Source: Thioploca sp.
GTDB taxonomy: Bacteria; Pseudomonadota; Gammaproteobacteria; Beggiatoales; Beggiatoaceae
Assembly: GCA_012032555.1 (NCBI GenBank)
Contig: JAAUSR010000014.1
Span: forward strand, 1-64,000
DNA length: 64,000 bases
Direction of reading: 5' to 3'
The notes below the pieces were generated by a model. It ran no database searches and was not told the DNA's origin. It saw only the letters and a list, made by a program, of their open reading frames with translations. Positions within the stretch are counted from its first letter, which is position 1; every line of letters begins with the position of its first letter. Shown here piece by piece: positions 5,683-45,106 of this stretch. Both the position numbers and the translations under genes were made by a program.

Positions 5683-5693
5683 AAATTCAGTAA

Positions 5694-5832
5694 TCAGTTA
5701 TCAATTATCAGTAAATAGTTATCATGTCTATTAGCTATTAAGCAATTATTATCAACACCGGTCTGTTAATTATCCAATCATTCAGTTTAAGTTATCATTA
5801 ATAACGGATAACGGTTCACTGATAACTGATTA
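5694..5832. repeat. TTATCAGT-rich inverted repeat element (copy A)
   Basis: The spacer between gspF and gspD starts with repeated AGTTATCA-type words and ends with their complements (ACGGTTCACTGATAACTGAT). The two arms can fold into one long imperfect hairpin. A similarly built element lies between bamA and skp at 52941-53085. Confidence 0.6.
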
Positions 5833-9481: not shown

Positions 9482-12244
9482 TTAAATTGCCCGAATTCGC
9501 TCAGCCTGTGCATTCAGTTGCTGTAAAGAAGCGTTCATTTCTGCTACGCGTTGCTGTTCTTTATCGATAATCTCTTGAGGTGCACGGGTAAGAAAGTTGG
9601 GATTATTTAATTTATTCTGACACTTTTCCAATTCTTGATGTAATTTCCCCATTTCTTTTTGTAACCGATTGAGTTCTGCATCTTTGTCGATTAATCCAGC
9701 TAAAGGAATAAGAACCCGCAATTCACCGACTAAAGCAATCGCTGATTCGGGTGCGGTAGTATGAACATTTAACCAAGTAATGGTTTCTAAACGTGCTAAC
9801 CGAGTCAATAGGCTGCTATAATCATTCAGTTTACGCTGATCCGCAGCACTACCATTTTGCAGAAGCACCGGCAAAGCTTTACCCGGCGCAATGTCCATCT
9901 CCGCCCGAATTCGCCGCACCCCTAAAATAAATTGTTTAACCCATTCAATTTCTTGAAGGGCTTGATCATCTATTTTAGCAGATTCTGGCTGTGGATAAGG
10001 TTGAAGCATAATCGTTTTACCGCTTTTTCCGGCCAAAGATGCTACTTTTTGCCATAACTCTTCCGTAATAAATGGCATAATGGGATGCAGTAATCGTAAT
10101 AAAGTTTCTAATACGCCAACCAAAGTTTGTCGAGTTCCTCGTTGCGCCGCTGCACTCATATCTGTTTGTAATAACGGTTTAGAAAATTCTAAATACCAAT
10201 CACAATATTCATTCCAGACAAATTCGTATAACGTATTAGCCATCATATCAAAACGATAGATTTTAATCTGTTGATGAACTTGTTCTTCTACTTGTTGTAA
10301 CAATGAAATAATCCACCGGTCGGTTGAAGATAACTCCACCGGTGCTGCTGTTAACCCGGTATCTTGCCCTTCTGTATTCATCAACACATAGCGGGTAGCA
10401 TTCCACAATTTATTACAGAAATGACGATACCCTTCAATTCGTCCCATATCAAAGCGAATATCACGCCCAGTTGAAGCCAGCGCGGTAAACGTAAAACGTA
10501 ATGCATCCGTTCCAAAAGCGGGAATCCCTTGCGGATATTGAGTACGGGTCACTTTTTCAATAGTTGGTGCCATTTCCGGTTGCATTAAGCCGGTGGTTCT
10601 TTTAGCCACGAGTGTTTCTAACTCGACACCATCAATTAAATCTAATGGATCTAAAACATTACCTCGTGACTTCGACATTTTTTGCCCTTGTGCATCACGA
10701 ATGAGACCATGAATATAAATCTCACGGAAAGGGACCTCATTCATAAATTTTAAGCCCATCATAATCATTCGTGCAACCCAAAAGAAAATAATATCAAATC
10801 CAGTAACGAGTACACTGGTTGGATAGAAAGTTTTAAGTCGCTCGGTATTTTCTGGCCAACCTAAAGTGGAAAATGGCCACAATGCGGAAGAAAACCAAGT
10901 ATCTAATACATCCGCATCTTGCTCTAAGGTAACGGTAGCTGGAATTTGATACTTTTCCCGTACTTGTGTTTCACTATAACCGACATATTCTTGACCTTTA
11001 TCATCATACCAAGCTGGAATCCGATGTCCCCACCAAATTTGACGACTGATACACCAATCGTCAATGTGGTACATCCAATCGAAATAAGTTTTTTTCCAAT
11101 TATCCGGAATAAACTGAATTCGCCCTTCTTCAACCGCTTTAATCGCCGCTGCGGCTAAAGGCGCTACTTTGACATACCATTGATCAGTTAAAAAGGGTTC
11201 AAGTATCGCATGACTTCGATCACCTCGTGGTATCATTAATTTATGGTGTTTAACCATGACCAGTAAACCGGCGGTTTCTAAATCAGCTACGACTCGGTAA
11301 CGAGCGGCAATTCGATCTAAGCCACGATAAGCTATTGGAACATTATCATTGAGTTTAGCATCAATAGTGAAAATATTAATCAGTGGTAAATGATGTCGCT
11401 GCCCAATGGCATAGTCATTAAAGTCATGTGCCGGCGTAATTTTGACACAACCAGAGCCAAATTGGGGATCAACATATTCATCGGCAATGATAGGAATCAG
11501 GCGTTCAGTGAGTGGTAAGGCGATGGATTTACCAATTAAATGTTGATAACGCTTGTCTTGTGGATGAACTGCCACGGCGGTATCACCTAACATCGTTTCT
11601 GGACGAGTGGTGGCGACAATGACTTCCTCACTCCCATCCGCTAAATGGTAACGTAAATGCCAGAGAAAACCATCTTCTTCCTGCGATTGTACTTCCAGAT
11701 CAGAAACGGCAGTATGTAAAACCGGATCCCAATTCACTAGCCGTTTACCGCGATAAATTAAACCTTCATCATACAAACGGACAAACACTTCACGTACCGC
11801 ATGAGAAAGACCTTCATCCATTGTAAAGCGCTCATGTGCCCAATCTAGAGAAGCACCCATCCGCCGCAATTGACGAGTGATATGCCCCCCTGATTGGCTC
11901 TGCCATTCCCATACTTGTTTAATAAAAGCTTCTCGTCCTAAATCATGACGAGTTTGTCCACGCGCGGCTAATTGCCGTTCTACCACCATTTGGGTCGCAA
12001 TTCCCGCATGATCAGTACCAGCTTGCCATAACGTACTATCGCCCCTCATCCGATGATAGCGGGTAAGAATATCCATTAGCGTATCTTGAAAGGCATGACC
12101 CATATGTAACGTACCCGTCACATTGGGTGGTGGAATCATAATACAATAAGGACAAGTGGCACTTTGCGGAGCAAAATACCCTTGTTCTTCCCAAAAATTA
12201 TACCAGTGTTGTTCAATTGTGTGAGGATTATACGTTTTTTCCAT
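9482..12244 (-). CDS. valS: Valyl-tRNA synthetase
   Basis: 920 residues, standard bacterial length. Class Ia signature HMGH near residue 47 within [14 protein letters not shown] and KMSKS near 525. The editing domain ([17 protein letters not shown]) is near 214. The C-terminal anticodon-binding helix bundle and the terminal coiled coil ([16 protein letters not shown] onward) are typical of ValS and separate it from IleS and LeuS. It charges tRNA-Val with valine. It lies upstream of and in line with the gspM-like gene, 82 bases away. No leader peptide or T-box was seen in the 400-base upstream region. Confidence 0.97.
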
Positions 12245-23950: not shown

Positions 23951-24673
23951 ATGTTAGAACTCGACGAACGTGTAGATAATTTAGAAACCATATTTGGACG
24001 CTTTATCATCAATAATGATAAAACCCTGCGTCGTTTAGAACAGATGATGGTCGAAATGCGTCAGCAATCTGCTCAAGACCGTGAGCGAACCGAGCAGATC
24101 TTGGCTGAAATGCGCCAACAGGCGGAACAAGACCGTGAGCGAACCGACCAGAGATTCGCGCAAATGCAACAGCAAGCGGAACGCGACCGCCAGCAAGCCG
24201 AACAAGATCGCCGGGAGTTGAATAAGCAATGGGGGGACTTAGCTAATCGCTTAGGAACAGTTGCAGAAGATATTGTGGCTCCCAATCTCCCCCGCCTTGC
24301 TCAAGAACAGTTTGGTTGTCCTGACGAACCTGATGATTTTATGGTGCGACGTTGGGTGAGACATAAAGTCGATAACAGTAAACGTCGGGAATTTGATGTG
24401 GTGGTGGTTTATCCCCAGACCGTCTTGATTAATGAAACCAAAGCTACCCCGAGACTCAATTATATCGATGATTTCATCGCGGTCATGGCGGATATTCACG
24501 GCTATTTTCCCGAATATCAAGGTAAAACGATCATTCCCATCTTTGCGGGATTATTTATTCCGGACAATCTGCTACATTATTTAACTAAACATAAAATTTA
24601 TGCCTTGGGTATGGGAGAGGACACGATGGAATTATTAAATTTTGAGCAATTAGCCCAAGCTAACATTACTTAG
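23951..24673 (+). CDS. Coiled-coil protein with PD-(D/E)XK nuclease-like domain
   Basis: 240 residues. The first third is an extended coiled coil with repeats of QQAEQDRERT (about 35-95). The C-terminal half resembles the PD-(D/E)XK fold seen in DUF3782-type proteins: REFDVVVVYPQTVLINETK near 146-165, where Asp of FD and E-x-K of NETK are at catalytic spacing, followed by a strand and helix (IIPIFAGLFIPDNLLHYL). Many copies of this type occur in Beggiatoa-like and cyanobacterial genomes. Its role is unknown; a mobile-DNA or defence function is only a guess. The ATG at 23951 follows GGGAG at a plausible distance. Confidence 0.7.
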   Translation: MLELDERVDNLETIFGRFIINNDKTLRRLEQMMVEMRQQSAQDRERTEQILAEMRQQAEQDRERTDQRFAQMQQQAERDRQQAEQDRRELNKQWGDLANRLGTVAEDIVAPNLPRLAQEQFGCPDEPDDFMVRRWVRHKVDNSKRREFDVVVVYPQTVLINETKATPRLNYIDDFIAVMADIHGYFPEYQGKTIIPIFAGLFIPDNLLHYLTKHKIYALGMGEDTMELLNFEQLAQANIT

Positions 24674-25614: not shown

Positions 25615-26007
25615 CTAGTGGTGTGACTTACCAAAAATTTTTTGAGTAGATAGGTGAATGTCCATCATTTCATCAATGACTTCACTGTCGTTGATATCAA
25701 AAGTCTTGTGTTGATTAGGTTGTGAGTAGACAGTAATGGATTTAATCGCTGGTATAACTAACCAACAAGATTTAATTCCCAGGGCAAAATAAGCTTGGAA
25801 TTTGGCTATAATGTCATTCATACTTTGACGTGGTGATAGCACTTCAATCGCTAATGCCGGCATGTTGGTCATTTTCAATTCATCTAGCGGTTCACTTAAA
25901 TCGATTGCTTCCTGATAAATACTGATGTCCGGTATCAGTTCGTCTTTTGTGTTGAGATTAAACTGGTTTAAGTCAATTTGACTGGTATCTAAACTCAGTA
26001 ATGCCAA
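25615..26007 (-). pseudogene. Uma2 family protein, truncated by MITE insertion
   Basis: The remaining 130 residues match the C-terminal two thirds of the Uma2 gene at 2770: LIPDISIYQ (motif Asp), LAIEVLSPRQS and FQAYFALGIKSCWLV. The N-terminal 45 residues or so are gone. The reading frame upstream runs straight into the MITE end at 26000-26012 and uses a TTG inside it as the apparent start, so the insertion removed the native start. The upstream sequence beyond the MITE does not resemble the missing part. It is probably non-functional. Confidence 0.75.
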
Positions 26008-26125
26008 TTAAGTGCTTGTATCTTTGAACTTATTGAAAAATTGGTTAGTTGGGTTTCGCTTCGCTCGACCTAACCTACATAATTTATTGATTTGTAATCT
26101 ACTATTTTATGTCTTAATTCGCATT
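26000..26125. repeat. MITE family 1, copy A (126 bp)
   Basis: TIRs AATGCCAATTAAG (26000-26012) and CTTAATTCGCATT (26113-26125). In the reverse orientation the interior is almost the same as copies B and C, including the GTTGGGTTTCGCTTCGCTC-type hairpin. It cuts into the Uma2 gene. Confidence 0.8.
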
Positions 26126-26224
26126 CTAAACCATAACTTAAATAATACGACATCCTCTATTAACTCAAGCTGGTAACACAACTGTAATAAAGTAGCGTGT
26201 TGGGTGAGGCTATATCAATCCTTT

Positions 26225-26252
26225 GGTGGGCAACGCTGCGCTTTTGCCCACC
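26225..26252. repeat. Hairpin GGTGGGCAA / TTGCCCACC
   Basis: 9-bp perfect stem with a 10-base loop at 26225-26252. It lies 30 bases downstream of the minus-strand DGQHR gene, where it could help to terminate, and belongs to the GTGGGC/GCCCAC type of dispersed palindrome. Confidence 0.5.
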
Positions 26253-26281
26253 CTACCGGAATTAGGTTATTTCAACCAGAA

Positions 26282-28432
26282 TTAAACCGGTAATTTATTG
26301 ATACATACTTGATTTTCCAATGCCAACCAATATTTTCCGGGTTCCTCTTTGACTTCAGTCGATATTGATGGCATCGCATCAATGATGGCTAGATTATTTT
26401 TTAACGCCGCTACTGCAATTTCCACTTCTTGGCTGACATAGTTATCAACTAATTGCTCAAAGCGATTAACGGCATTTAATTTAGTCCGTTTGCCCGCTTT
26501 TACTTCTTGTTGATAACGTTTTTGTTCCGCTTCGGCTTGAGCAAGTTCTTCTCTTTCTTCGCCACTGAGGGATAAATAGAGACGATAATTTGCTTTGAAA
26601 GTTCTTTTACGGGCCATCTTATAGGTTTGGGGAAAAGCTAACAGTGCATTTTGTCCTTGTTGCTGTAACTTTTCTATCCATAATTTACTATCCCGTTTAG
26701 TAATACCCAGTTCGCTGATAATTTGTTTAACATAAAGTGGATTCGCCAAATGAACGAGTAATAATTGTGCTAAAATTTTGCGCGTTTCTTCACGAACGAT
26801 AATTTGAGTGCCTAAAAATACCGTATGTTGCATGTAAGGTTGCTCAAAATTAAAAAATTGTCCCGGTTGATGAAGTGCTAAATTTAACAAGCGGACGAAT
26901 CCTTGAGTGGCTAGCTGAGGTTCGGTGGTCAGGTTCCGCACGGTTTCGACAAATTGCGCCCAGGCTTCTAATAATGCTCTTTGAAAGAGTGCATATTGGA
27001 TTAAGGTAGTAACTTGTTTTTCTTTAGCTTGTTTGATTTTTAATTCCCAATGTCGGTAAAGCAACCGCGTACTTTCAAAAGATTTACCTTCACCAATCGG
27101 CATATAATCCAAAATTTGGTTAATGACTTGTCTTGCTTCATAGGCATCCGGTTGCTCGCTGGCAGCGAGTTCTTTTAGCAATTGGAGTTCTTGTGCAAAT
27201 ATTTCAACCGCAATGATAAATTCATGTGTGGTGAAAAAGATTAACTCGAGGCAAGGCAGCAGATGTTTTTTAACCTGTTCTGCCAAAACACTTTTCTGCG
27301 CGAGAGAAAACTGATTCCATTTGATTAAGGGTGGATAGCAATCCGTTTCAGTTTCTAGATGAGGGGTTGGATAAAGTTTATTTTCAACTTCATCCAGTCG
27401 GAGAATATAGTTCAACAAATTTCTTCGCTTGCCGATACTCTCTTCTAACGCTTTGTTAATAATACCAATACTGGTCAGAGAATAAGGGCGAACAATTTTG
27501 GTTGAATCCTTTTTCGTTGGCGTATTCCATTCAATGACAGCTAATCCTTCAGGACCACGACGGCGTAATATTTCATCACAAAATTGGCGACAAATAATAC
27601 TGCCTAAAGTGTTGTCTGATAACAGAATATTGAAGTGAACCCCGACCGGTTTAGCGGTATTATTGACGTCCACAAATAAATGTCGAAAAACTTCGGGTAC
27701 GGTTGGTATTCTGAGCGGTGCCGTTTCACTATTTTTCTGGCGTGTGGCATGAGGTGCAAAGAGAATACAAACAGGTACACCAAGATTTTCAAGTAATTGC
27801 GGATGTTTATCGTAAACTTTCTTAAGCGTTAATAATCGGTGTTGACCATCAATAATAATGAGACGGGCACCGATTTGATTGCCTTTGGCCAGCCGGATTT
27901 CCAATTGCACCGGTTCACATTGAACCCCAATTTGAGTGAGATTGTCGGTACTCAGTTGAATTTGATAGGCGTGTGGATTGGTGCTGGTAAAATAAGTCAA
28001 TTTAAATAATCCCGGCCATTCCCTGGTGAGATGTTCTTTACCACCGGTTGGGCATTCGACTTGGCTGATTTCATCAGTGTAGTAAGCCGACATGGTTTTA
28101 CCTTGAGTCGGGACAATGGCAGCCAGTAAAGGTGGAAAGAATACTGCCCGGGATTTAATTTCGGCGGCGGTTAGTTGCTTAACGTGTGGATTTAAATAGG
28201 GTTCCATTTCAACCTGAACGCGTTCTTCATCAATATCACGCTGCATCAATAGTTCAAAGTCGATTTGTTCTGGGCGAATATCTCGAGCAAACGTCAATTC
28301 AGCTAATTGCGCAGCGGAAAAAGTAGTCATGATATATTCGATCGGAAAAGAATCGCCGCTATAAAACCGACCAAAGCTACCAATTCGTACCAAGTTATAA
28401 ATTTGTTCTTCACCAAAAGTTTCTAGTAACAT
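26282..28432 (-). CDS. DGQHR-domain protein (DndB-like)
   Basis: 716 residues from the ATG at 28432, which follows GAGGAG by 8 bases (an upstream in-frame GTG at 28441 overlaps the SD and is unlikely). The DGQHR motif lies near residue 195 within RLIIIDGQHRLLTLK, and the FPPLLAAIVPTQG strand is the usual approach to it. The N-terminal 120 and C-terminal 400 residues resemble no family I know. DGQHR proteins include DndB, the regulator of phosphorothioation, but no dndA/C/D/E neighbours are here. It follows a LEA14-like lipoprotein gene after 51 bases. The DGQHR residues suggest nucleotide or DNA binding; the true role is unknown. Confidence 0.7.
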   Translation of the reverse strand: MLLETFGEEQIYNLVRIGSFGRFYSGDSFPIEYIMTTFSAAQLAELTFARDIRPEQIDFELLMQRDIDEERVQVEMEPYLNPHVKQLTAAEIKSRAVFFPPLLAAIVPTQGKTMSAYYTDEISQVECPTGGKEHLTREWPGLFKLTYFTSTNPHAYQIQLSTDNLTQIGVQCEPVQLEIRLAKGNQIGARLIIIDGQHRLLTLKKVYDKHPQLLENLGVPVCILFAPHATRQKNSETAPLRIPTVPEVFRHLFVDVNNTAKPVGVHFNILLSDNTLGSIICRQFCDEILRRRGPEGLAVIEWNTPTKKDSTKIVRPYSLTSIGIINKALEESIGKRRNLLNYILRLDEVENKLYPTPHLETETDCYPPLIKWNQFSLAQKSVLAEQVKKHLLPCLELIFFTTHEFIIAVEIFAQELQLLKELAASEQPDAYEARQVINQILDYMPIGEGKSFESTRLLYRHWELKIKQAKEKQVTTLIQYALFQRALLEAWAQFVETVRNLTTEPQLATQGFVRLLNLALHQPGQFFNFEQPYMQHTVFLGTQIIVREETRKILAQLLLVHLANPLYVKQIISELGITKRDSKLWIEKLQQQGQNALLAFPQTYKMARKRTFKANYRLYLSLSGEEREELAQAEAEQKRYQQEVKAGKRTKLNAVNRFEQLVDNYVSQEVEIAVAALKNNLAIIDAMPSISTEVKEEPGKYWLALENQVCINKLPV

Positions 28433-28483
28433 TGTTACCACTCCTCTAGCAGATGACAGAAAAAATAAGGAATCTTCCAGCGG

Positions 28484-28972
28484 TCATTTCTTCTCATCAG
28501 TTTGGGTTTCTCCCCAAAATAACGCCACTTCACCTTGATAATCAAATGGCAGTTGCGGTGCCCAATCCACTACGTTGACACCACCCACCAATTGATAACG
28601 AAATCGCTGATTAAGTAATGTCTTCCAATCCTGCCATTGCCCTATAAGCCGCATTAGATTACTCGTGACATCAATATCCAAAAATTCTTCACCTAAAGCC
28701 GGAATGGTAATCGCTTGATTATTTTTGCCTTGGGTAAATTCTTGATCATTAATTCGCACTTGGTAATTAAACTGAGTAATCGGCAGTGGAAAAGGATTGG
28801 GGTTGTTGAGACGGAGGCGTAACCGATAATTTTGTTCCAGCAAACCTAAATTGAGCAATCTAAAATCGGTTAAACTGATTTTAGGCGTAGCGGGTTTGAG
28901 AGGTAAATTAGTACAAGCAATAAGTAAAAATATTAAAATCAATAGTGTAAAAGGTTGAATCAGTTTAGACAT
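28484..28972 (-). CDS. LEA14-like (LEA type 2) lipoprotein
   Basis: 162 residues from the ATG at 28972. A lipoprotein signal (LILIFLLIAC) gives Cys20 as the anchor. The mature part has the LEA_2 beta-sandwich: RLRLRLNNPNPFPLPITQFNYQVRIND (about 60-85), with the conserved NPN-P turn. LEA14 proteins in plants bind membranes in dehydration; bacterial lipoprotein members are of unclear role. It lies 125 bases downstream of the AsnB-like gene and 51 upstream of the DGQHR gene, all on the minus strand, suggesting one transcript. Confidence 0.75.
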   Translation of the reverse strand: MSKLIQPFTLLILIFLLIACTNLPLKPATPKISLTDFRLLNLGLLEQNYRLRLRLNNPNPFPLPITQFNYQVRINDQEFTQGKNNQAITIPALGEEFLDIDVTSNLMRLIGQWQDWKTLLNQRFRYQLVGGVNVVDWAPQLPFDYQGEVALFWGETQTDEKK

Positions 28973-29097
28973 AAACGGCTTGTTTCCCAACAATAGGCCA
29001 GTTAGCGTTAAATTTTATCATGAAATGGGCGTTTGTAATTCGTTTAGTTATTTTGGTCAGATTCCATTCTGGAGGTTTCTTGATAGGAAATTGGAAA

Positions 29098-30945
29098 TTA
29101 TTGAGCCATCCCACTCGTTCGTAACCATAATTTCAAGGTTAATAACCGAAAAAATAAGTCACGGCGTTTCGTCCAATCCGCCATCGAAATTTGCCAAGGA
29201 TTATCACCATAGATGGCGGTTAAAATTTCTACTTCGGGTGGTGTAGGTGAATGCCATAATTCTCTCAGTACCTGACTGTGGCCCAGATAATAAGTCCAAT
29301 TCGGCCATGAGCCATCCGTTGTATGAACGGCCGGTCGTTTTTTTAAGCCCAGCAAATAACCGATTTCTCGTTGACTATTAGCCAATAACCATTGAATTAA
29401 TTTGACTTGGGTATGAACGCTTAACCTCGAACCATAATTACTATCAGCTACTGATTTTCCTCTTGATCCCACTATTTTAGCCACTGCTTGTTCAAATACT
29501 GTACTATTAACTTTAGCTAAGGTGGGAAAGCGACCATAGACTTCTAATACCGCCGGATCAGCAAATAGAGTATCCCAGGGTTGAGCTCTGCGTAAAACCA
29601 ACTGCGCCATATTAGCGAATATCCTCGATAAAGGTCTTATTCTTTTTTCTTCTACGGCTAAGGCATTATTTAAATAATCATCTAGTTGGATCCCTAACAG
29701 ACGGTCCTGGATTCGTTCATAAATGACGCGATTAAATTTCTCTGACTTCAAGGTGTAATAAGGTCGGTACCATTGTTTGTTATAACAATCGATTTGCCAC
29801 AAAGGTAATGTTTTACCGAAAAAATGTTGATATTTTTTATTGAACGCCAATCCTTTGAAAAGATAATCAGCGTAACAACCACTTAGTAACACACCCAACC
29901 CCAAGTTGCTAATCTGCTCATCTATTCCGAGAAAATGCCCATGCTGAAACTCAGACATTCCACCAGAAATTCTTACATTGTCTAGAGCGGTGCGGCCATA
30001 GTATTCAAAATCTCTTTGGAAACAATGATGAGTAGCATGGGCTAGTGCCGCTAATTTTTTAGCTGTTTTCAATTCAACATTGGGCTCGTCAAACAACGTG
30101 ATACAATTCACGGCTTGGGGTTGTTCAACACTAAAAAGGATGGCCCTAGAATCCACACCACCACTCAAAAGAATACCCACTTTGCCCAGATGAGATGAGG
30201 TACGGATACGTACTGCCTGGCGAATAGCCTCAGCTAATTCAGTGGCGAGTTCCTCACTATTAGTAGCCGTTGGGGTTTCATCCAGGTAATGGGGATGCCA
30301 ATATTCAACTTGATGTGGCGGTTGGTTGGGTTGGTTTAAATCCCAGGTATAGTGAGTTCCTGGATCTAATTGATAAATTTCTTGGTAATAAGAATGTGGA
30401 TGAGCGCAACGTCCAACAATGATAAATTCGGCCATCGTCACCAAATCAAGGTGAAGTTGATATCTATTTGTAGTTAATAACTGCGCTAGAATATCAGGAT
30501 GGGAACCCAGATAAATACCCCCAACAGTGGATGCAAACAACGGATAAATTCCCATTCTATCCGTGATAACATGTAATTGTTGAGTTTTTTGTTCATAAAT
30601 AACTAGCGTACCGCCATTTAACCAATTAACAATGTTATTTTGGTATTTAAACCATTGAGCTATAACCTGTTTAGCAACTACGCCACCTTCAAAAGGCAGT
30701 TTTTGTGCTGCTTGCCATTCTTGCGCTGGCAGTGCAATTCTACCAATAAACCCCGCCCAGGTACCGGTTTCTTTGTCAATAGCAGCACCCCAGTAATCCA
30801 GCGAGTCAACTCGTACAATACCGGCTTTCAAGGAACTTAAATCATACTGTTGTGGTTTTGCTGCCTTAACAAAGCACAGTTTACTCAGAATATTTTTAAA
30901 ATCTGCAGATGAAAATTCATCTGCAGTGAGAATAATATCCGACAT
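29098..30945 (-). CDS. Asparagine synthetase-like protein without the Cys2 nucleophile
   Basis: 615 residues. A glutaminase-like N-terminal half precedes the ATP-pyrophosphatase motif LLSGGVDSRAIL near residue 262, the clear mark of an AsnB-like synthetase domain. The start MSDIIL lacks the Cys2 that AsnB needs for glutamine hydrolysis, so it may use free ammonia or another nucleophile, or cyclise a substrate as beta-lactam synthetases and lasso-peptide cyclases do. No precursor-peptide gene or lasso protease was seen. Downstream lie a lipoprotein gene and the DGQHR gene. Confidence 0.7.
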   Translation of the reverse strand: MSDIILTADEFSSADFKNILSKLCFVKAAKPQQYDLSSLKAGIVRVDSLDYWGAAIDKETGTWAGFIGRIALPAQEWQAAQKLPFEGGVVAKQVIAQWFKYQNNIVNWLNGGTLVIYEQKTQQLHVITDRMGIYPLFASTVGGIYLGSHPDILAQLLTTNRYQLHLDLVTMAEFIIVGRCAHPHSYYQEIYQLDPGTHYTWDLNQPNQPPHQVEYWHPHYLDETPTATNSEELATELAEAIRQAVRIRTSSHLGKVGILLSGGVDSRAILFSVEQPQAVNCITLFDEPNVELKTAKKLAALAHATHHCFQRDFEYYGRTALDNVRISGGMSEFQHGHFLGIDEQISNLGLGVLLSGCYADYLFKGLAFNKKYQHFFGKTLPLWQIDCYNKQWYRPYYTLKSEKFNRVIYERIQDRLLGIQLDDYLNNALAVEEKRIRPLSRIFANMAQLVLRRAQPWDTLFADPAVLEVYGRFPTLAKVNSTVFEQAVAKIVGSRGKSVADSNYGSRLSVHTQVKLIQWLLANSQREIGYLLGLKKRPAVHTTDGSWPNWTYYLGHSQVLRELWHSPTPPEVEILTAIYGDNPWQISMADWTKRRDLFFRLLTLKLWLRTSGMAQ

Positions 30946-31281
30946 ATCTTAATCACTTTAGTTCAATCTGAACTATTCATGTTATGTTGTCATTATAATT
31001 ATTTACTCGATAATTGAATAAATTATTATGGTTAATAGACGCTGTGTTACCCGTTATTGGTCGTATAGCTAAACGAATAAATAACCTTACAATTTAATTT
31101 TATATTTTAAGCAAGATTAAACGGATTATCAGGTAAGCGGTTGGTACCAAGTAGTTGAAAACAGTTCAAATCAAACGAGATAGAATGAATCCTAATTATC
31201 TGTTAATCCGGTTAATCTTGTCCAAAAGTGAAAGTTAAATTCACCTACTGTATTAGGTAAGATACTTAATTAGCTGTTTTA

Positions 31282-31417
31282 ATGCTATAAGTAAGCATAG
31301 TACAATGAACAAATTCTTATTTCTACAATGTCATCACCAATAATTGATATGTCATCATCCCGTACCATTTGTTTAGCCATAGCTGTAGTTGAAGTGTTAG
31401 CGCCGAGTATAACTTTA
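31282..31417 (+). pseudogene. Glycerate kinase 5' remnant with internal deletion
   Basis: 31282-31380 matches 39120-39219 (upstream region and first 18 or so codons of the glycerate kinase) with about 8 differences. It continues at once with 31381-31417, which matches 39568-39604, an internal part of the same gene, so about 348 bases are missing. The remnant stops at 31417. It is in the same orientation as the intact gene. Confidence 0.8.
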
Positions 31418-31527
31418 TAGATATATCGTTATCATCACTTCTGCGGCGGTGAAGCTTAAATCGGCATAATTTGACATGCGCTGACAATACATCCACAACC
31501 CTTGATAATAAGGCTTGCATATATACA

Positions 31528-31651
31528 AATGCGAATTAAGAGCTAAAATATGAGATTATAAATCAGTAAATTATGTCGGTTAGGTTGAGCGAAGCAAAAC
31601 CCAACTAACCGATTTTTAAATAAGTTAAAGATACCAGACTTAATTGGCATT
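31528..31651. repeat. MITE family 1, copy B (124 bp)
   Basis: TIRs AATGCGAATTAAG (31528-31540) and CTTAATTGGCATT (31639-31651) flanked by AC on both sides, a possible 2-bp target duplication. The interior contains GGTTGAGCGAAGC-like sequence and CCCAACTAACC. A second CTTAATTCGCATT terminus lies at 31776-31788. Confidence 0.8.
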
Positions 31652-31876
31652 ACAAATAAATTGCTATTAATTGTTTTTGCCAGTCCATCGTGTTGCTTTC
31701 CTTAATTGAGATGAGGTTGATTACTTTTCTCATTATTAAGTAGTCGACAGACGGATTAGCTACCCATTTTTAGCTCTTAATTCGCATTTAAATACTTTAC
31801 TTGGTTTATTTTTCTACACTTTATTTTACCTTTACTTTGGCAAAGGTATTATTCACTCTTAAAAGGAGTATTCATT

Positions 31877-34800
31877 ATGTTACCAGAACATATTGAAATT
31901 TGCTTAATTCAACCACGACGAACTCCGCAACCGATTACCATTGAAGCGCTTCGATTCCGTAACTGCCGACGAAATTTCAAGCAAATCCCTAAACTGGCTA
32001 CTTTCCTGGTCAGTTTAACTTTGATATTGCCTTTTGCGGCACGGGCAGCGACCAATTGCGAGACAGTGGGTGAAATTACCACAGTAGAATGTGAAGCCCT
32101 TATTAATCTTTATAATGGTACCGATGGAGAACATTGGTATGACAGTCCTGGAAATAATTGGAATGTGACAAATGAACCCTGTAGTTGGGTAGGAGTTACT
32201 TGTGTTGGTGGACATGTAACTGAAATTAATAGAGAACGGCAAGGGTTATTGGGTACACTTCCCCATTTAGGTGCGTTAAGTTATTTGCGGGTGCTTGATT
32301 TAAGTGGTTGTGGGGGGTGGTTCGACGAATTGAATCAAGACGATAACCTGAATCGAATAAAAGGCTCTATTCTAGGATCACGTTTGCCAACCAGTTTACA
32401 GACACTCGATCTATCTTGCACTAACTTAGAAGGAACTATCTCTGATTTTAGATCCTTAACGGGATTGCAGGTTCTTAATCTATCTTCTAACTTATTTAGA
32501 GGGCCAATTCCAAACCCCAGGTTACACTTCTCAACGAGTTTACGGACTCTCGATCTGTCTTCCAATTCTGGACTAGAACTAGGAATTATTCCTAACTTTA
32601 AAGATTTCACAAATTTACAAGAACTTATATTGTTTTCTACTAATAGAACTGGCCCGATTGAGGTTTCATCTTTTCCAACGAGTTTGCGGGTTCTTTATCT
32701 AGATAACAACCAATTACAGGGAAATATCCCCGATTTCAGACCATTAACTCGGTTGCAGAATCTTAATCTGTCTAATAATCAATTTAGCGGGATCCTTTCA
32801 AGTTCAAATTTTCCAACCAGCTTGCAGACCCTCGATCTCTCTTCTAATTCTGGACTGGAATCTCAAAGTATTCCTAATTTTAATAGATTTAGTCAGTTAC
32901 AAACACTTAATTTGAGTAATACTCGACGAACCGGATCGGTTCAAGGAACTGATTTTCCAAGTCGTTTGCAATGGCTTTCTCTGTCTAGCAACCAATTAAA
33001 CGAAATTGCAGATGATTTCAGTCAACTGAATAGTTTGTCTCATCTCGAGTTAAACTCCAACCAATTTAGTGGTTCTCTTCCCAGTTTACCCTTGCCAACC
33101 AGTTTGCAAACGCTTTATCTAGCGGGTAATCAATTAACCGGGCTCGAACCGGATTTTAGTCAACTGAAGAGTTTGTCTTATCTCGATTTAAGCCAAAACC
33201 AATTCAGTGGTTCTTTTCCCGGCTTACCCTTACCAACCAGTTTGCAAACGCTTTATCTAGCGGGCAACAAAATAGATAAACTTGAAAATGATTTCAGTAA
33301 ACTCAGTAGATTGTCTTATCTTAACCTCAGCCAAAACCAACTCAGCGGCTCTCTTGCTAGCCCCCCTTTTCCAATCGGTTTAGGAGAGCTTTATCTGGCT
33401 GGTAATCAATTAACCGAAATTGACAAAAATTTTAATCGCTTAAATAAGTTGTCTTATCTAGATTTAAGCCGTAATCAACTCACTGGCCCCCTGTTTGGAT
33501 CCAATTTACCAACTAGTTTAGGAAGGCTTTATCTGAATGACAATCAGTTAACCGGAATTGCCGCTTTTAGTCAATTGACCCGTCTAGAGTATCTCGAACT
33601 TAGCCGTAACCAAATCACTGGTTTGCTGTTAGGTGCCGCTTTTCCAACGAGTTTGCAAGAGCTTTATCTGAATGACAATCAATTAACTAAAATTGAAAAC
33701 GATTTCAATAGATTAACTAAGTTAAACTATCTCAACGTCAGTCACAATCAGCTCAGCGGTTCTCTTTCCAAAGCAACCTTTCCGACCAGTTTGGAAACGC
33801 TTCTTCTGAATAACAATCAACTAACGGGTAAGCTACCCAATCTCAGTCGCTTGATTCAGTTACAGTATCTTAACTTAAGTCAAAATCAATTAAAAGGCAT
33901 TCTGCCTGATTTTAGTCAACTCACCCAGTTGAGAACGCTTGATTTATCTCGCAACCAATTCAGTGGAGCTATTCCATCCACATTAACTAGCTTACAGCAA
34001 CTGGGGAGCTTGGATTTAGGTTACAACTATTTAACAACTCCTTATCCAGAAGTACTTAAATTTCTTGAAGCACCTGGAAATAAAGACCCTGATTGGTCCT
34101 ATACTCAGGGTCCACAACTCCAATGTCCTAATGGAGGAAGAGTCAATATTCAACCTTCACCGGTTGATTTTGGAACGGAGGTGATTAACAGTCGCACAGC
34201 AGCAACCGTTTATATGCGATCTCAAAATTGTGATGATATTCAAATCCAAACCATTGAGTTTGGTGGCAGCAATATTGACGAATTTAAGATAACTAGTAGA
34301 AGTTGCAATTCGGGAGGATGGCAGGGAGATAGCTACTCCTCCTGCCAATTTACCATTGAGTTTTCACCCACCGCCGCCGGTATCAAAGAAGGGGCTTCTG
34401 TTAACCTGACCTTCACCGTTCCTAATATGCCAATTTTTTCCATGCCGCTGCAGGCAATAGCAGTTGAATCGGGTGAACCCCAAATTGAGATGTCTTCAAA
34501 CTCATATGATTTTGGAGAAGTTACGCTGGATAACTCCTCAGAATTACAACCATTTACTGTCACTAATACCGGTAACATTAATCTGAAATTTGAGAAGATT
34601 GAGTTAACTGGCACTGCCACCAAAGACTTTAAAGACTATATTTATAGCTGCTTTACTGAAAAAGTATTACTACCTTCAAAACAGTGCTTCATTAATACCC
34701 AGTTCTTTCCCACTTTATCAGCCGGTGTTAAGGAAGCGAAATTGAGCATCACTTCTAATGCCGCTGAGAAGCCGGTAGAAATCCCATTGAATGGAACCGC

Positions 34801-37800
34801 TCTTGAGCCAGAAATGTGTTCAGAAGATAAAATTACGATTGCATCAGTCGGTAATGGTTCATGGAATTCCCCCGCAACTTGGACAGAAAACAAAATTCCC
34901 CTGGAAGAAGATGTCGTGCAAATTAACCAAGGTCACTCGGTCGTCGGTATACCTTATGCCGCAGTGAAAACACTTTGTATTGAAGCCGGTGGCATTTTGA
35001 CCAGTGCCGATAATCAAGGAACGTATTTGATTATTCAAGCTAGTGATTATATTGAAAATAAAGGTAAAATCGTCGGTCAAGATGGCACTCATGAATTAGC
35101 AGCGACGACTTTATGTACCACAGATTACTGGTCTGCAATTGGTAAAGAAAGTTGTGCTCAACCGGGCGCGGCTGTTTATCTATCAGTCGGTGATTGGTCA
35201 GAAACGCGGTTGCGAAATGAAGGTACCATTACTGCGGGTCGCGGTGGGAATGGCAAACAATATAGTGCCTATGGTGGTATTGTTGGAATATATGGCGGTG
35301 GTCTAACTAACACTGCCATTAATGGCAAAAGGGGTACTATTTTAAGTGGTAGCGGCGGTCATATAACTAGTAAACTGACCGGGCAAGCTGGTAATGGCGG
35401 TGATCTCTCCATGTTAGCTAAAGATTACTTACATCATGATGAAGTCATGATTTTTGCTGGGGATGGTGGTAATTGCAATCCAGAAGCGACTGAATCGCAA
35501 TGGGGTGGTAAGGGTGGCGATATCCGCTTCAATGCACCTTTCCGCGTTGATCTAGTGGGAACATTCGGCGCCGGCACCGGTGGAATTCACTGCCAACCAC
35601 CAGAAAACAATGGCCAAGATGGTCAGTTTATCAGTGATCCCGGGATTATTTCTTTGTCAGGTGCTAACACAAAAATTAGCGGTGGTGATATTGCCATTTA
35701 TGGTGGGAAGGACTGGGTATTGGATCTCAGTAATCTCAATGGATTCAAAGGCCCAATTATAACGGCTACCGGCAATATCACTCTCGCGGTGGGTGAAGGC
35801 GAAAAGAGTGCTATTAATCTGAGAGGTAGTAAAGGTCTGCTCTTACAAGCCGCCGGTCAAGTCAATCTCTTTTCTGATCGTATTTTACTGGATGACAAGG
35901 TAGAACTATCAGATATCATTAAAGCGAACAAAATTGTGGTCGGTCCAAGCCAGATTTTGCGCGGTGTGTCTTTGGCAGGGTCCGGTAAATTTTTTGGCAA
36001 GCCTGGAGCCATTTTGCCAATTCGTCTAATTCTCTCTAATAGTGGTCCAGAAAAAGATAGCTATTTTTTAGAAGTGCAAGACTTAGCGGGCTGGAGTTTG
36101 AGCGAATTATCCTCTCCTATTGAAATTTATGGGTTAAACAATGTTTTATTGAACCTGAGTGTTCAGTTACCGACTACCGGTGGTGAAATGAATCTCGTCA
36201 AGGTAACAGCGACTTCGCAAATTGATCCCAAGGTGAAAGCGGTTGCTGAAATACAAATCATCGTGGCCAAACCCAATACCAATGCTGGATCTATCCTGGT
36301 TCCCAAGGAAGTGCCGATCGTTGTTAGCAATGGGGATATGACTACTTCTCCACCGACTACAACTAGCACCATTGAAAATAATACAACCATTCCTCCAATC
36401 ACCGAAGTAACCCCGGTCGATATTGTCCAAGATAGAACGCCTTTTGATGAAGAATTACCACCGACTAGTAAAGAAAATATCACCCTCCCACCCATCGAGA
36501 GTGAAATAGATAATATTGCCTTAGCAGAAATAAGTGCGATTCCTACCACGGTGATTACTTCGGCGTTACCACCCATTCCCAATTGCCCACTGACTGGCAT
36601 TATCGATTGGATGTGTGATAATCACGGACAAGTGATGATCGATGCGACTCTTGAAAGCAATGCTAATGTGGCCGGTGGTGAATTGGCTGGAATGATTAAT
36701 AATCAAGGAATTATCTCCAATGTGACTATTCAACCTGGAACAGAGGTTCATAGCGGTCAATTGACTGGCTACATTAATAACCAAGGTCTTTTAGCTGATT
36801 TTAATTTTGTAGGCGCCTTCGTTAATAATGGTATCTTATCTGGCACGATCACTAACAATACACAAGTAGGTGGTGTCTTCAAAGATGTCCACTTAGCAGC
36901 TAATACCCAGATAACTGGTGGTTATTTGCAAGGTGATATTTTAGGTGATGTGAATGCCCCAGCACATTTGGCAAAGCTTACTGTCAAAGCCGGTAGTCAT
37001 CTATCCAATGTCATTCTCGGTGAAGATGTAAAATTAGCCCCAGGCGTAACCTTCCAAGATGTCCAACTCGTAGCACCTTTGTCCTTCACTGCGGGTAACT
37101 TACAAGGTAATGTTACCGGTGTTAATTTCACCAACGATTTGATGTTCAAAGATATACACCTTGCTGCTCATAGTCAATTAAACGGTGTCCAATTGCAAGG
37201 TAATATTTTGGGTGATATTAATGCGCCAGCGTTATTGGAAAACGTCGAAATCAAAGCCGGCAGTTACCTGACCGGGGTGATACTGGGTAATGGTGTGAAA
37301 CTAGCTGAATCAGTTACTTTTGGAGAAGGTGTCCAAATCGCCTCCTCGAATTCTATCGACTCATCTCCATTACCAGCTCTTGGTGCGATAGCGACTGATC
37401 ACCAAGGAAAAATTATCAACACGGTGGCCATGTTAACTGGAGGTATTTCAGTCAATGGGGCCCCCTTTGATGCTAAAGTGATTACCAAGCCGTCAGATAC
37501 TGTAAACATTAGTGGCCAAATTAACCCCGATCCAAGACATCTTGGACAACAAGCTGAAATCGTTGTCTTGATTACTTATCAATCATTCAATGCGGCTAAA
37601 AATGAACACTCCCTTGATTTGATGTTAGATGCTCATGGTCAAATTTTACCTTGGGATGGAAATAATGCCCATTTAGCATTTTATCAACGGGTTGTTTTAG
37701 AAGCAAATCAACCGGTAGTGCTCTATCAAGGTTCTGTAGATGTATCGGGTAGTTTAGATATTTCTTTCGGATATCGTTTAGAAAACGGCACTATGGTACA

Positions 37801-37840
37801 AAATGCTCAACCGATTGAAATGACTGTGATTAAGGAATAA
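31877..37840 (+). CDS. Giant secreted LRR / G8 / beta-solenoid surface protein
   Basis: 1987 residues. A long signal peptide (about 59 residues, hydrophobic part LATFLVSLTLILPFAARA) is followed by an LRR cap (HWYDSPGNNW..CSWVGVTC) and about 22 plant-type leucine-rich repeats (110-715; L-x-x-L-x-L-S-x-N-x-L-x-G). Two HYDIN-like choice-of-anchor domains come next (about 758-970), then a G8-like domain (GNGSWNSPATWTENKIPLEEDVV, about 990) and a beta-rich, glycine-rich region to about 1300. A NEW3-like Ig domain (about 1375), a Thr/Pro linker, a C-terminal solenoid of GG-x-L-x-G-x-I-x-N repeats (about 1575-1810) and an end domain (ALGAIATD.. to YRLENGT) complete it. The last parts are shared with the protein at 62084. 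The length and LRRs suggest surface adhesion; this is inference. Confidence 0.85.
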   Translation: MLPEHIEICLIQPRRTPQPITIEALRFRNCRRNFKQIPKLATFLVSLTLILPFAARAATNCETVGEITTVECEALINLYNGTDGEHWYDSPGNNWNVTNEPCSWVGVTCVGGHVTEINRERQGLLGTLPHLGALSYLRVLDLSGCGGWFDELNQDDNLNRIKGSILGSRLPTSLQTLDLSCTNLEGTISDFRSLTGLQVLNLSSNLFRGPIPNPRLHFSTSLRTLDLSSNSGLELGIIPNFKDFTNLQELILFSTNRTGPIEVSSFPTSLRVLYLDNNQLQGNIPDFRPLTRLQNLNLSNNQFSGILSSSNFPTSLQTLDLSSNSGLESQSIPNFNRFSQLQTLNLSNTRRTGSVQGTDFPSRLQWLSLSSNQLNEIADDFSQLNSLSHLELNSNQFSGSLPSLPLPTSLQTLYLAGNQLTGLEPDFSQLKSLSYLDLSQNQFSGSFPGLPLPTSLQTLYLAGNKIDKLENDFSKLSRLSYLNLSQNQLSGSLASPPFPIGLGELYLAGNQLTEIDKNFNRLNKLSYLDLSRNQLTGPLFGSNLPTSLGRLYLNDNQLTGIAAFSQLTRLEYLELSRNQITGLLLGAAFPTSLQELYLNDNQLTKIENDFNRLTKLNYLNVSHNQLSGSLSKATFPTSLETLLLNNNQLTGKLPNLSRLIQLQYLNLSQNQLKGILPDFSQLTQLRTLDLSRNQFSGAIPSTLTSLQQLGSLDLGYNYLTTPYPEVLKFLEAPGNKDPDWSYTQGPQLQCPNGGRVNIQPSPVDFGTEVINSRTAATVYMRSQNCDDIQIQTIEFGGSNIDEFKITSRSCNSGGWQGDSYSSCQFTIEFSPTAAGIKEGASVNLTFTVPNMPIFSMPLQAIAVESGEPQIEMSSNSYDFGEVTLDNSSELQPFTVTNTGNINLKFEKIELTGTATKDFKDYIYSCFTEKVLLPSKQCFINTQFFPTLSAGVKEAKLSITSNAAEKPVEIPLNGTALEPEMCSEDKITIASVGNGSWNSPATWTENKIPLEEDVVQINQGHSVVGIPYAAVKTLCIEAGGILTSADNQGTYLIIQASDYIENKGKIVGQDGTHELAATTLCTTDYWSAIGKESCAQPGAAVYLSVGDWSETRLRNEGTITAGRGGNGKQYSAYGGIVGIYGGGLTNTAINGKRGTILSGSGGHITSKLTGQAGNGGDLSMLAKDYLHHDEVMIFAGDGGNCNPEATESQWGGKGGDIRFNAPFRVDLVGTFGAGTGGIHCQPPENNGQDGQFISDPGIISLSGANTKISGGDIAIYGGKDWVLDLSNLNGFKGPIITATGNITLAVGEGEKSAINLRGSKGLLLQAAGQVNLFSDRILLDDKVELSDIIKANKIVVGPSQILRGVSLAGSGKFFGKPGAILPIRLILSNSGPEKDSYFLEVQDLAGWSLSELSSPIEIYGLNNVLLNLSVQLPTTGGEMNLVKVTATSQIDPKVKAVAEIQIIVAKPNTNAGSILVPKEVPIVVSNGDMTTSPPTTTSTIENNTTIPPITEVTPVDIVQDRTPFDEELPPTSKENITLPPIESEIDNIALAEISAIPTTVITSALPPIPNCPLTGIIDWMCDNHGQVMIDATLESNANVAGGELAGMINNQGIISNVTIQPGTEVHSGQLTGYINNQGLLADFNFVGAFVNNGILSGTITNNTQVGGVFKDVHLAANTQITGGYLQGDILGDVNAPAHLAKLTVKAGSHLSNVILGEDVKLAPGVTFQDVQLVAPLSFTAGNLQGNVTGVNFTNDLMFKDIHLAAHSQLNGVQLQGNILGDINAPALLENVEIKAGSYLTGVILGNGVKLAESVTFGEGVQIASSNSIDSSPLPALGAIATDHQGKIINTVAMLTGGISVNGAPFDAKVITKPSDTVNISGQINPDPRHLGQQAEIVVLITYQSFNAAKNEHSLDLMLDAHGQILPWDGNNAHLAFYQRVVLEANQPVVLYQGSVDVSGSLDISFGYRLENGTMVQNAQPIEMTVIKE

Positions 37841-39166: not shown

Positions 39167-40408
39167 ATGTCATCACCAATAATTGATATTTCATTATCCC
39201 GTACCAGTTGTTTAGCCATTTATCACCAAGCCTTAGCAAGGGTTAATGGACGCCAATGTGTAGCTACTTTTCTACGTCAGTATTCTTATAAAACGCCCGT
39301 TGCTCTCATTGCGCTGGGTAAAGCAGCTACTCAAATGGCCGTGGGTGCCTTTGATGTTTTAGGTACGGCGATTTCTCATGCCCTTCTCATCACTAAAGTC
39401 GGACATTTAGATCGACCACTTATTCAAGATTATCCCATAACTTGTCTAGAAGCAGCGCATCCCATACCCGATGAGTCTAGCTTAGCGGCTGGACAAGTTT
39501 TACTCGATTTTATTAACCAGTTACCCCCTGGGTTCCCAATTTTATTGCTGATATCAGGTGGTACTTCAACTGTAGTTGAAGTGTTAGCGCCGAGTATAAC
39601 TTTAAGCGATTTACAAAAAGTTAACCAATGGTTATTGGGTTCCGGTTTAGATATTCACTCCATTAATAAAATTCGTAAAAGTTTATCAGCTATCAAAGGG
39701 GGACGATTAGCGACTTATTTGCTTGGGCATCCTGTCTTGAACTTATTGATTTCTGATGTTCCAGGTAATGATTTATCAGCCATTGGCTCTGGTTTACTTA
39801 CCTATCATGAAAAACAACCGCTACCGGCTTTTCTCCCTGATTGGTTGTACCGTTTAACGACTCAAGTAAGTCCTTTAGCTTCATTTCATCATTTCGAGCA
39901 GATTATTCAATATTTGGTTGCTACGCCAGCATTGGCTCGCCAAGGTGCAAGTGAAATCGCACAATGGCTTAATTATCCTATTTTCAATCATGACGAATTC
40001 ATTGCTGGAGAAGCCTCAATAGCCGGTCGTATTTTAGCGCAACAATTAAGTATCTCAGTGCCGAGTATTCATATCTGGTCTAGTGAAACGACAGTGCATT
40101 TACCACCACAACCAGGCCAAGGGGGACGTTGTCAAAGTTTAGCATTAGCCGCCGCTATTGAACTTGCGGAGCAAAATGATATTTATTTACTCGCTGCCGG
40201 TACTGATGGTAACGATGGTCCCGGGCAAGTGGCGGGTGCATTAATTGATAGCAGAACGATATCACGTGGTAGTCAAGCTGGGTTAAATGCCGCTAGTTGT
40301 TTAGCGCAAGCCGATGCTGGTCGATTTCTAGCCGTTAGTGGTGATCTCATTTATACTGGGCCAACCGGAACCAATGTCATGGATATCATCATCGGTTGGA
40401 AACGATAG
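39167..40408 (+). CDS. Glycerate 2-kinase (DUF4147/MOFRL family)
   Basis: 413 residues. Family landmarks are ALGKAATQMAVGAF near 45, SGGTSTVVEV near 130, SDVPGNDLSAIGSG near 200, and the MOFRL end GTDGNDGP..AGALID and GPTGTNVMD. Enzymes of this type (TtuD/GckA) phosphorylate D-glycerate to 2-phosphoglycerate in glyoxylate and tartrate metabolism. Its 5' end also occurs as a remnant at 31282. The ATG at 39167 is preceded by TTCTACC with no clear SD. It stands alone between the IS630 element and the convergent molybdopterin genes. Confidence 0.9.
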   Translation: MSSPIIDISLSRTSCLAIYHQALARVNGRQCVATFLRQYSYKTPVALIALGKAATQMAVGAFDVLGTAISHALLITKVGHLDRPLIQDYPITCLEAAHPIPDESSLAAGQVLLDFINQLPPGFPILLLISGGTSTVVEVLAPSITLSDLQKVNQWLLGSGLDIHSINKIRKSLSAIKGGRLATYLLGHPVLNLLISDVPGNDLSAIGSGLLTYHEKQPLPAFLPDWLYRLTTQVSPLASFHHFEQIIQYLVATPALARQGASEIAQWLNYPIFNHDEFIAGEASIAGRILAQQLSISVPSIHIWSSETTVHLPPQPGQGGRCQSLALAAAIELAEQNDIYLLAAGTDGNDGPGQVAGALIDSRTISRGSQAGLNAASCLAQADAGRFLAVSGDLIYTGPTGTNVMDIIIGWKR

Positions 40409-44054: not shown

Positions 44055-44140
44055 GTTTCACCGTTGCTTCAGTACTAAAAATTGAGCTATTTTCAATTCA
44101 ATAATTTATCGTATTTAACTATAATACTCATCCCAGTCTA

Positions 44141-44160
44141 GGCCCAATTTTAATTGGGCC
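44141..44160 (+). terminator. rpsB-tsf intergenic hairpin
   Basis: GGCCCAAT-TTTA-ATTGGGCC, a perfect 8-bp stem between rpsB and tsf, resembling the intergenic attenuator in this operon in E. coli. There is no long T run, so termination is presumably partial. Confidence 0.55.
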
Positions 44161-44225
44161 AAAGTAAAGTGTTGTGGTTAAGCAAGCAAAATAGCATTTT
44201 GTTGTATAATTAAGAGGTTAAAATA

Positions 44226-45105
44226 ATGGAAATTACAGCAGCCTTAGTTAAGGAGCTGCGGGAACGCACCGGTGCTGGAATGATGGAATGCAAAAAAGCA
44301 TTGGTAGAAAGTGCCGGTGATATTGAAGTTGCTATTGAAGCCATGCGCAAAGCGGGTATTGCCAAAGCAGCTAAAAAAGCGGGAAGAATAGCCGCAGAAG
44401 GTTTAATTGCTATCCAGCAAAACACTGAGCGGGTTGCTATGGTAGAGATCAATTGTGAAACAGATTTTGTCTCTAAGGGAGAAGATTTTAAAGCTTTTGT
44501 AATACCGTAGCAATGACGGTTTTAGGTGAACAGCCAGCTAACTTGGAACAACTGATGAGCGCCGTTCTACCTGCTGGTAAAACCGTTGAAAATGTTCGTC
44601 AAGAATTAATTGCTAAGTTGGGAGAAAATATTCAGGTACGACGGTTTACCTTGATTAATATTGCACCTGATGGTTGTATTGGCGTTTATTTACATGGTAC
44701 CCGAATTGGGGTCTTAGTCGATATGCGAGGTGGTCAAGCTGAGTTAGCTAAGGATATTGCTATGCACATTGCAGCTAGTCGCCCTTTGTGTGTTTTAGCG
44801 GAACAAGTGGCGCCAGAAATCGTGGCTAAAGAAAAAGAAATTTATCTCGCTCAAGCAGCTGATAGTGGTAAACCATCTCATATCATTGAAAAATGGTAGA
44901 AGGACGCCTCAAGAAGTTTTTAGCCGAAATCACTTTACTGGGACAACCTTTTGTCAAAGATCCAGACCAAACCGTAGAAAAGCTACTCAAAACTAATCAA
45001 GCCCAAGTTGTTCAGTTTGAACGCTTTGAAGTCGGTGAGGGTATTGAAAAGAAGACTGAAAATTTTGCTGAGGAAGTGAGAAAACAAGTAGAAGGATTCG
45101 TTTAA
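44226..45105 (+). CDS. tsf: Elongation factor Ts, interrupted by two one-base deletions
   Basis: EF-Ts (nucleotide exchange for EF-Tu). The frame is broken in two places. Near 44500, GTAATACC should be GTTAATACC, so the first part ends after KGEDFKAFV. At 44889-44893, five A's should be six, to join IIEK to [13 protein letters not shown]. When both are repaired the protein is a normal EF-Ts of about 290 residues: UBA-like start ([19 protein letters not shown]), [16 protein letters not shown], and the final coiled coil and PFVKDP motif. EF-Ts is essential, so errors in the sequence are the likely cause. Confidence 0.85.
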
Positions 45106-45106
45106 A

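Follow-up and report, generated by a model that had tools for sequence, protein, structure and literature searches.

A long-form DGQHR protein of Thioploca sp. and its possible connection with DNA phosphorothioation

Three genes and the architecture of the DGQHR protein

The DNA analyzed here (the window) comprises 64,000 nucleotides of Thioploca sp., a member of the Beggiatoaceae (contig JAAUSR010000014.1). Its minus strand carries three open reading frames (ORFs) which in genome order encode a long DGQHR (ParB/DndB-like) protein, a LEA14/LEA_2-type probable lipoprotein and an AsnB-like synthetase. The DGQHR protein and its putative role in DNA phosphorothioation (PT) are the main subject of this analysis. 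An earlier sequence-only reading had described three same-strand genes at 26282-30945, and the same ORFs were recovered at these positions. The DGQHR gene (26282..28432, minus strand) encodes 716 amino acids (aa) from the ATG at 28432. Its ORF extends to a GTG at 28441 (719 aa) and the ATG start is favoured by the alignment of relatives; with this start the 716 residues as well as the intergenic gaps of 125 bases (AsnB-like/LEA14) and 51 bases (LEA14/DGQHR) reported before hold. The LEA14 gene (28484..28972, minus strand, from ATG) was correctly recognized as that of a LEA14-type lipoprotein, with a PF03168 match at E=1.9e-16 and a lipobox-like LIAC motif seen by eye.

The AsnB-like protein (29098..30945, minus strand, 615 aa) matches PF00733 with 37.0 bits against a cut-off of 21, contains the SGGVDS motif at residues 261-266 (read from the sequence) and keeps GATase_7 as a sub-threshold remnant only (22.8 vs 25 bits). 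Because its N-terminus reads MSDIIL, with the open frame stopping one codon upstream, it has no Cys2, in agreement with the earlier description. It does not qualify as glutamine-hydrolysing asparagine synthase, lacking the Cys2 nucleophile and reaching 71.4 bits with TIGR01536, below the cut-off of 267.1. Work on its substrate covered family, structure and plasmid searches.

For comparison 95 genomes were used, 42 from the window's family (relatives of Beggiatoa, Thiomargarita, Parabeggiatoa and Marithrix) and 53 from other families of the same class. Gene neighbourhoods were compared via ORF clustering and the loci examined bear L-numbers; G000 is the window's genome and G001 its sister genome from the same genus, with a closed chromosome. 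Ratios of nonsynonymous to synonymous substitution rates against G001 are about 0.12 for the AsnB-like, 0.08 for the LEA14 and 0.10 for the DGQHR gene, so all three are under purifying selection and therefore genuine genes.

Hallmarks of the DGQHR domain are, according to PMC4619093, a QR pair, the DGQHR pentapeptide and an FxxxN motif. All of them are kept by the window protein and are invariant in 17/17 aligned relatives (residue numbers counted from the GTG start): the pair Q67-R68 within QRDIDEER (28238..28243, minus strand), the pentapeptide at residues 198-202 (27836..27850, minus strand) and F256-N260, invariant in both residues (27662..27676, minus strand). A Pfam scan recognized no nuclease domain and no HNH, and a GmrSD_N match (E 0.011) stayed below the cut-off. 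As judged from its sequence, the protein is a long-form DGQHR protein whose N-terminal domain is related to the DGQHR family and is followed by a long helical C-terminal region. Run against the sequences of the PDB, the family profile gave no credible match. The same profile found no match in viral contigs, tblastn found none in phages, and in a class-wide search at E<=1e-8 only 1 of 369 genomes responded, namely the window's own. PADLOC matches of the three window proteins were dismissed as chance-like; they were confined to the C-terminal helices of the DGQHR protein.

Dnd genes in the genomes of the family

Relatives of the DGQHR protein occur in 16 of the 95 genomes, all of them among the 42 of the family. 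In the same 42 genomes DndC exceeds its curated cut-off in 19 and DndD in 20. Every DGQHR carrier possesses DndD (16/16) and all except one possess DndC (15/16); the exception, G037, has DndD together with a DUF4007/SspB match at 6e-78. Dnd genes are found in only 4 of the 26 non-carriers (G029, G031, G032 and G039), each from a genus that also has a carrier. Fisher tests of this co-occurrence, in which kinship is ignored, gave 2.9e-8 for DndD and 5.4e-7 for DndC, and counting by genus gave 10/10 vs 0/15 (3.1e-7).

The DGQHR gene and the dnd genes are located apart from each other. In the window's genome DndC and DndD lie on contig C130 (13.3-14.6 and 30.1-32.0 kb) with DndE at about 35.4 kb, while the DGQHR gene lies on C42. 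In the closed sister chromosome the dnd genes are found at 4.59-4.60 Mb and the DGQHR gene at 2.76 Mb, i.e., 1.8 Mb away. The former remark on the absence of Dnd genes nearby consequently holds for the window contig but not for the genome. Likewise the suggested tie of DGQHR with phosphorothioation stands as genome-wide co-occurrence and through relatives within Dnd and Ssp loci (see below), though not as an adjacent gene set: it would operate in trans. The family dnd genes are themselves loosely grouped, and DndC, DndD, DndE and DndA were recognized in neighbourhoods of varying completeness. As a separate observation, part of the DndD C-terminus is present a second time on C130, immediately in front of dndE (L194 11231-11391, ~35.2-35.4 kb).

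How far this pattern reflects function depends on the number of evolutionary events behind it. An RpoB tree was available for 38 of the 42 family genomes, the four without usable RpoB being excluded. It contains two independent pairs that differ in Dnd, and in these DGQHR was concordant in 1.7 on average and never opposite. The within-family evidence is therefore consistent, yet only few events underlie it. The alternative that the Dnd tie in the family is shared ancestry only, and that the present role of the protein is unrelated to phosphorothioation, draws on this low number of independent changes and on the gene being unlinked to dnd, with a HIT-domain (histidine triad) gene as its commonest neighbour (9/16). 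It has to face the presence of DndD in all carriers and the lack of the DGQHR gene also in the Dnd-free groups (a 15-row clade and five g20 genomes). As moreover PT genes stand beside distant relatives from other classes and phyla in 8/9 loci, we regard such an explanation as rather unlikely.

Classical DndB (TIGR03233) was found above the cut-off in none of the 42 family genomes. Five weak matches appeared in four of them, the window gene not being included. These were rejected as classical DndB: the two that were read are DGQHR proteins of another sort (~345-348 aa), with 29% in the profile comparison with the long DGQHR family. Nor is the window protein a classical DndB. It stays below the TIGR03233 cut-off and does not adjoin dndCDE, its gene being on another contig than dndC and dndD. 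DndB (PF14072 / TIGR03233), a reported negative regulator of dnd genes, has in common with it the DGQHR domain and the association with Dnd, but comprises only ~350-390 aa, whereas the window protein has its long additional C-terminal region and is unlinked to dnd. An alignment of two classical DndBs matched the long DGQHR family weakly by profile (9.3%).

Distant relatives and a possible role in trans

Outside the family long DGQHR genes are mostly neighbours of PT genes (8/9 loci inspected, the count excluding a second Trichormus plasmid record, H7). The nearest relative is encoded in a metagenome-assembled genome of Pseudomonadales (L064, 32%), with DndB and DndC beside the gene. In L081 SspA-D-type genes take this position, and L082 repeats the same gene order by annotation. 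L116 contains SspD and a DndA/SspA-type desulfurase, L117 SspD, L197 SspB and SspD, and L118 a DndA/SspA-type desulfurase together with DndB. In L199, from the viral collection, DndC, DndD and DndE are situated upstream. Plasmid searches with the window or the Asticcacaulis protein led to ssp loci of Asticcacaulis (two records), Trichormus, Geminocystis and Cyanobacterium HL-69 and to DndA plus DndB in Nonomuraea. With the window protein alone the two Asticcacaulis records were obtained and with the Nonomuraea protein the same seven records again; the L064 protein as query found no match in plasmids and none in the viral scan.

DGQHR proteins have been described in PT systems before, and the plasmid relatives carry the annotation 'DNA sulfur modification protein DndB' in their records. 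Those beside ssp genes (Asticcacaulis, cyanobacteria) share with the window protein the long architecture and a block of the type QRD(I/L)D...DGQHR...FxxxN. In profile-profile comparison the window family and the Ssp-linked long proteins matched with 99.3% (E 3.8e-20) over residues ~27-293, the C-terminal half not being joined. In contrast with the window protein they reside inside PT loci, usually behind a probable GIY-YIG gene, and their C-terminal halves do not align with those of the window family.

Among the eight distant loci whose upstream side can be read, six have this probable GIY-YIG gene immediately before the long DGQHR gene (L064, L081, L082, L116, L117 and L118). We take its product to be a GIY-YIG protein from the spacing G(I/V/L)Y...P(I/L)Y(I/V)G...R...H...E..L...P..GR, which is typical of these nucleases and was assigned with the help of an alignment. 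Among four candidates tested with Pfam one gave a weak match (L118, E 0.015, below the cut-off) and L064, L081 and L116 gave none; in L117 the annotated candidate starts later than the stretch matching L116. The GIY-YIG gene is absent upstream in L197, and in L199 a GHKL-type ATPase gene takes its place. The pair of GIY-YIG and long DGQHR proteins in Dnd and Ssp loci is a candidate two-gene PT effector. No description of it was found in the open-licence literature of PubMed Central (PMC); an earlier description is nevertheless possible. Two further genes of these loci are worth mentioning. In the L064 Dnd locus the long DGQHR gene is followed by that of a 430-aa protein (5080-6372, plus strand) which has a HEPN match of the Csm6/Csx1 type. 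On the L199 contig, with its DndC-DndD-DndE, a second DGQHR-motif protein of 567 aa without Pfam match (9777-11480, plus strand) is followed by an HNH gene.

According to the literature, the DGQQR NTPase (nucleoside triphosphatase) domain of SspE and DndI is combined with an HNH nuclease, and the arginine of the DGQQR motif is needed for the PT-DNA-stimulated hydrolysis of guanosine or adenosine triphosphate (PMC13251355, PMC11662687). PMC10853773 mentions that Dnd loci have URI/GIY-YIG nucleases at their borders and discusses for DndB a role as NTPase, as nuclease or in nucleotide degradation. In PMC4507180 DndB of Salmonella is reported to bind the dnd promoter region and to regulate it, namely by repression.

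By analogy the window protein could be an effector like SspE or DndI, in which the DGQHR domain reads PT and a separate nuclease (GIY-YIG in the relatives) attacks unmodified or invading DNA. The upstream GIY-YIG genes of the distant loci and the domain combination of SspE and DndI argue for it. SspE and DndI (DUF262 plus HNH, DGQQR) have indeed the N-terminal ParB-like DGQ(Q/H)R domain, the considerable length and the PT system (Ssp or Dnd) in common with the window protein. They carry, however, an HNH domain, and the window protein has neither this nor another recognized nuclease domain, its GmrSD_N match being below the cut-off. A profile of the GIY-YIG partner found nothing at E<=0.001 in the 42 family genomes (two weak matches, 0.0066 and 0.039), and the window gene stands among housekeeping genes (names by eye) and not in a defence island. 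The restriction model TIGR03237 (dnd_assoc_2) was silent in the 42 genomes; since the control was silent too, absence of such restriction genes cannot be claimed. Taken as a description of the window protein, the effector model appears quite unlikely.

The simplest reading is a regulatory NTPase that reads PT- or dnd-DNA and acts in trans, because no nuclease domain, partner or classical DndB was found in the family. We therefore suggest, with about evenly balanced confidence, that the window protein is a phosphorothioation-linked regulatory NTPase of the ParB/DGQHR type which serves Dnd in place of classical DndB. Its N-terminal DGQHR domain is likely to bind PT or dnd DNA and to hydrolyse NTP as a switch. 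The long helical C-terminal region, with no recognizable nuclease, would be joined to this domain. In the family the long protein would replace classical DndB and thereby limit or gate Dnd modification, acting in trans and apart from the LEA14 and AsnB-like genes.

Several observations weigh against this regulatory role. The gene was never seen adjoining dnd genes in the family, and the four Dnd-bearing genomes that do not have it are 85-99% complete. On the RpoB tree Dnd changes twice and DGQHR five times, and shared descent could explain much of the correlation because there are just two independent pairs. Curated DGQHR models remain below their cut-offs with the window protein (TIGR03187 26.6 vs 58.85 bits, PF14072 19.9 vs 29.1). 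The two AlphaFold models are weak, with a mean pLDDT (predicted local distance difference test) of 72.6 and 60.5. Fold searches with both against PDB, and with the first also against viral models, returned nothing at E<=0.001, so that a ParB/Srx fold can only be presumed. Since L064 and L118 encode classical DndB in addition, the long form does not substitute for DndB there. Finally, L198 from the viral collection shows by eye no PT gene, its contig beginning inside the DGQHR gene.

Gene neighbourhood and significance

The sequence-only reading had also suggested that the three genes could form a new modification or defence module. In favour of such a co-transcribed unit, both genomes of the genus have the order and the short gaps in common and selection is purifying on all three genes. 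The order is thus not unique to the window's genome, as the sister genome shares it, yet within the comparison set it is restricted to these two genomes of a single genus. A close relative of the AsnB-like protein exists in just one other genome among the 95 (same genus, 89%), the others being 22-33% identical over parts. LEA14 relatives are present in 44/95 genomes, mostly away from DGQHR and commonly in genomes without it, and 14 family genomes have the DGQHR protein without the window-type AsnB. In front of LEA14 both genomes have an extended -10-like sequence (by eye, in a region where promoter-like sites are at chance level). A scan of 25900-32000 yielded 22 promoter-like sites vs 18.1 expected and 5 terminator-like sites vs 5.3; with counts at chance it decides nothing on a three-gene operon. 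The comparative data already disfavour the module, which we consider most improbable.

LEA14 is found close upstream of DGQHR on the same strand in 6/16 genomes (G000, G001, G017, G023, G034 and G037). The HIT-domain gene adjoins DGQHR in nine, eight in tandem and one divergent (L066, L067, L068, L069, L008, L071, L078, L080 and L073; Pfam HIT run on one). In an older layout, best kept in L066 (Thiomargarita) and L068 (Parabeggiatoa), a glycerate-kinase gene is divergent from LEA14, which is followed by the HIT-domain gene and DGQHR. The window's genus has the AsnB-like gene between LEA14 and the kinase gene, and tblastn found no HIT gene in the window or in L065. The three-gene order is confined to one genus; the AsnB-like gene arrived late next to the older LEA14-(HIT)-DGQHR group. 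The order is a genus-level arrangement around an older LEA14/DGQHR pair, and the AsnB-like protein is judged to be a genus-specific neighbour outside the system. The glycerate kinase-type gene (DUF4147/MOFRL; 39167..40408, plus strand), also near the group in L065, L066 and L068, is an old neighbour outside the mechanism. Between it and the AsnB-like gene the window encodes a 1987-aa leucine-rich-repeat protein with a HYDIN-like immunoglobulin domain (31877-37840, plus strand), an insertion difference since the flanking genes are ~0.2 kb apart in the sister genome.

Elsewhere in the window a coiled-coil-like protein is encoded (23951-24673, plus strand), with tandem repeats of 54 bases inside the gene and a weak match of NERD-like nuclease type. 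EF-Ts (tsf; 44060-45106, plus strand), between rpsB and pyrH, is spread over three reading frames (gene names by eye), likely owing to sequencing or assembly indels because tsf is essential. A HypF-like carbamoyltransferase (57833-60105, minus strand; name by eye) lies in two frames, which suggests an indel.

A broader proposal, tentative and somewhat doubtful, would see in long DGQHR proteins a so far unrecognized PT-reading component of Dnd and Ssp systems, typically paired with GIY-YIG as a split analogue of SspE/DndI. In giant and filamentous sulfur bacteria it may have lost the nuclease and come to lie apart from dnd, as the main DGQHR-type partner of Dnd in trans. For the window's family no report of phosphorothioation was found in the open-licence PMC literature (none for Thiomargarita, two for Beggiatoa that are unrelated as judged by title and beginning of the abstract). 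Should the link with phosphorothioation hold, PT systems would, in addition to DndB and SspE, possess a second and long DGQHR partner that serves the Dnd as well as the Ssp machinery. Dnd systems could then also have a part that sits unlinked on the chromosome, invisible to neighbourhood-based surveys. The giant sulfur bacteria, with the large amounts of sulfur they handle, would likewise become suitable for asking which purpose DNA phosphorothioation serves.

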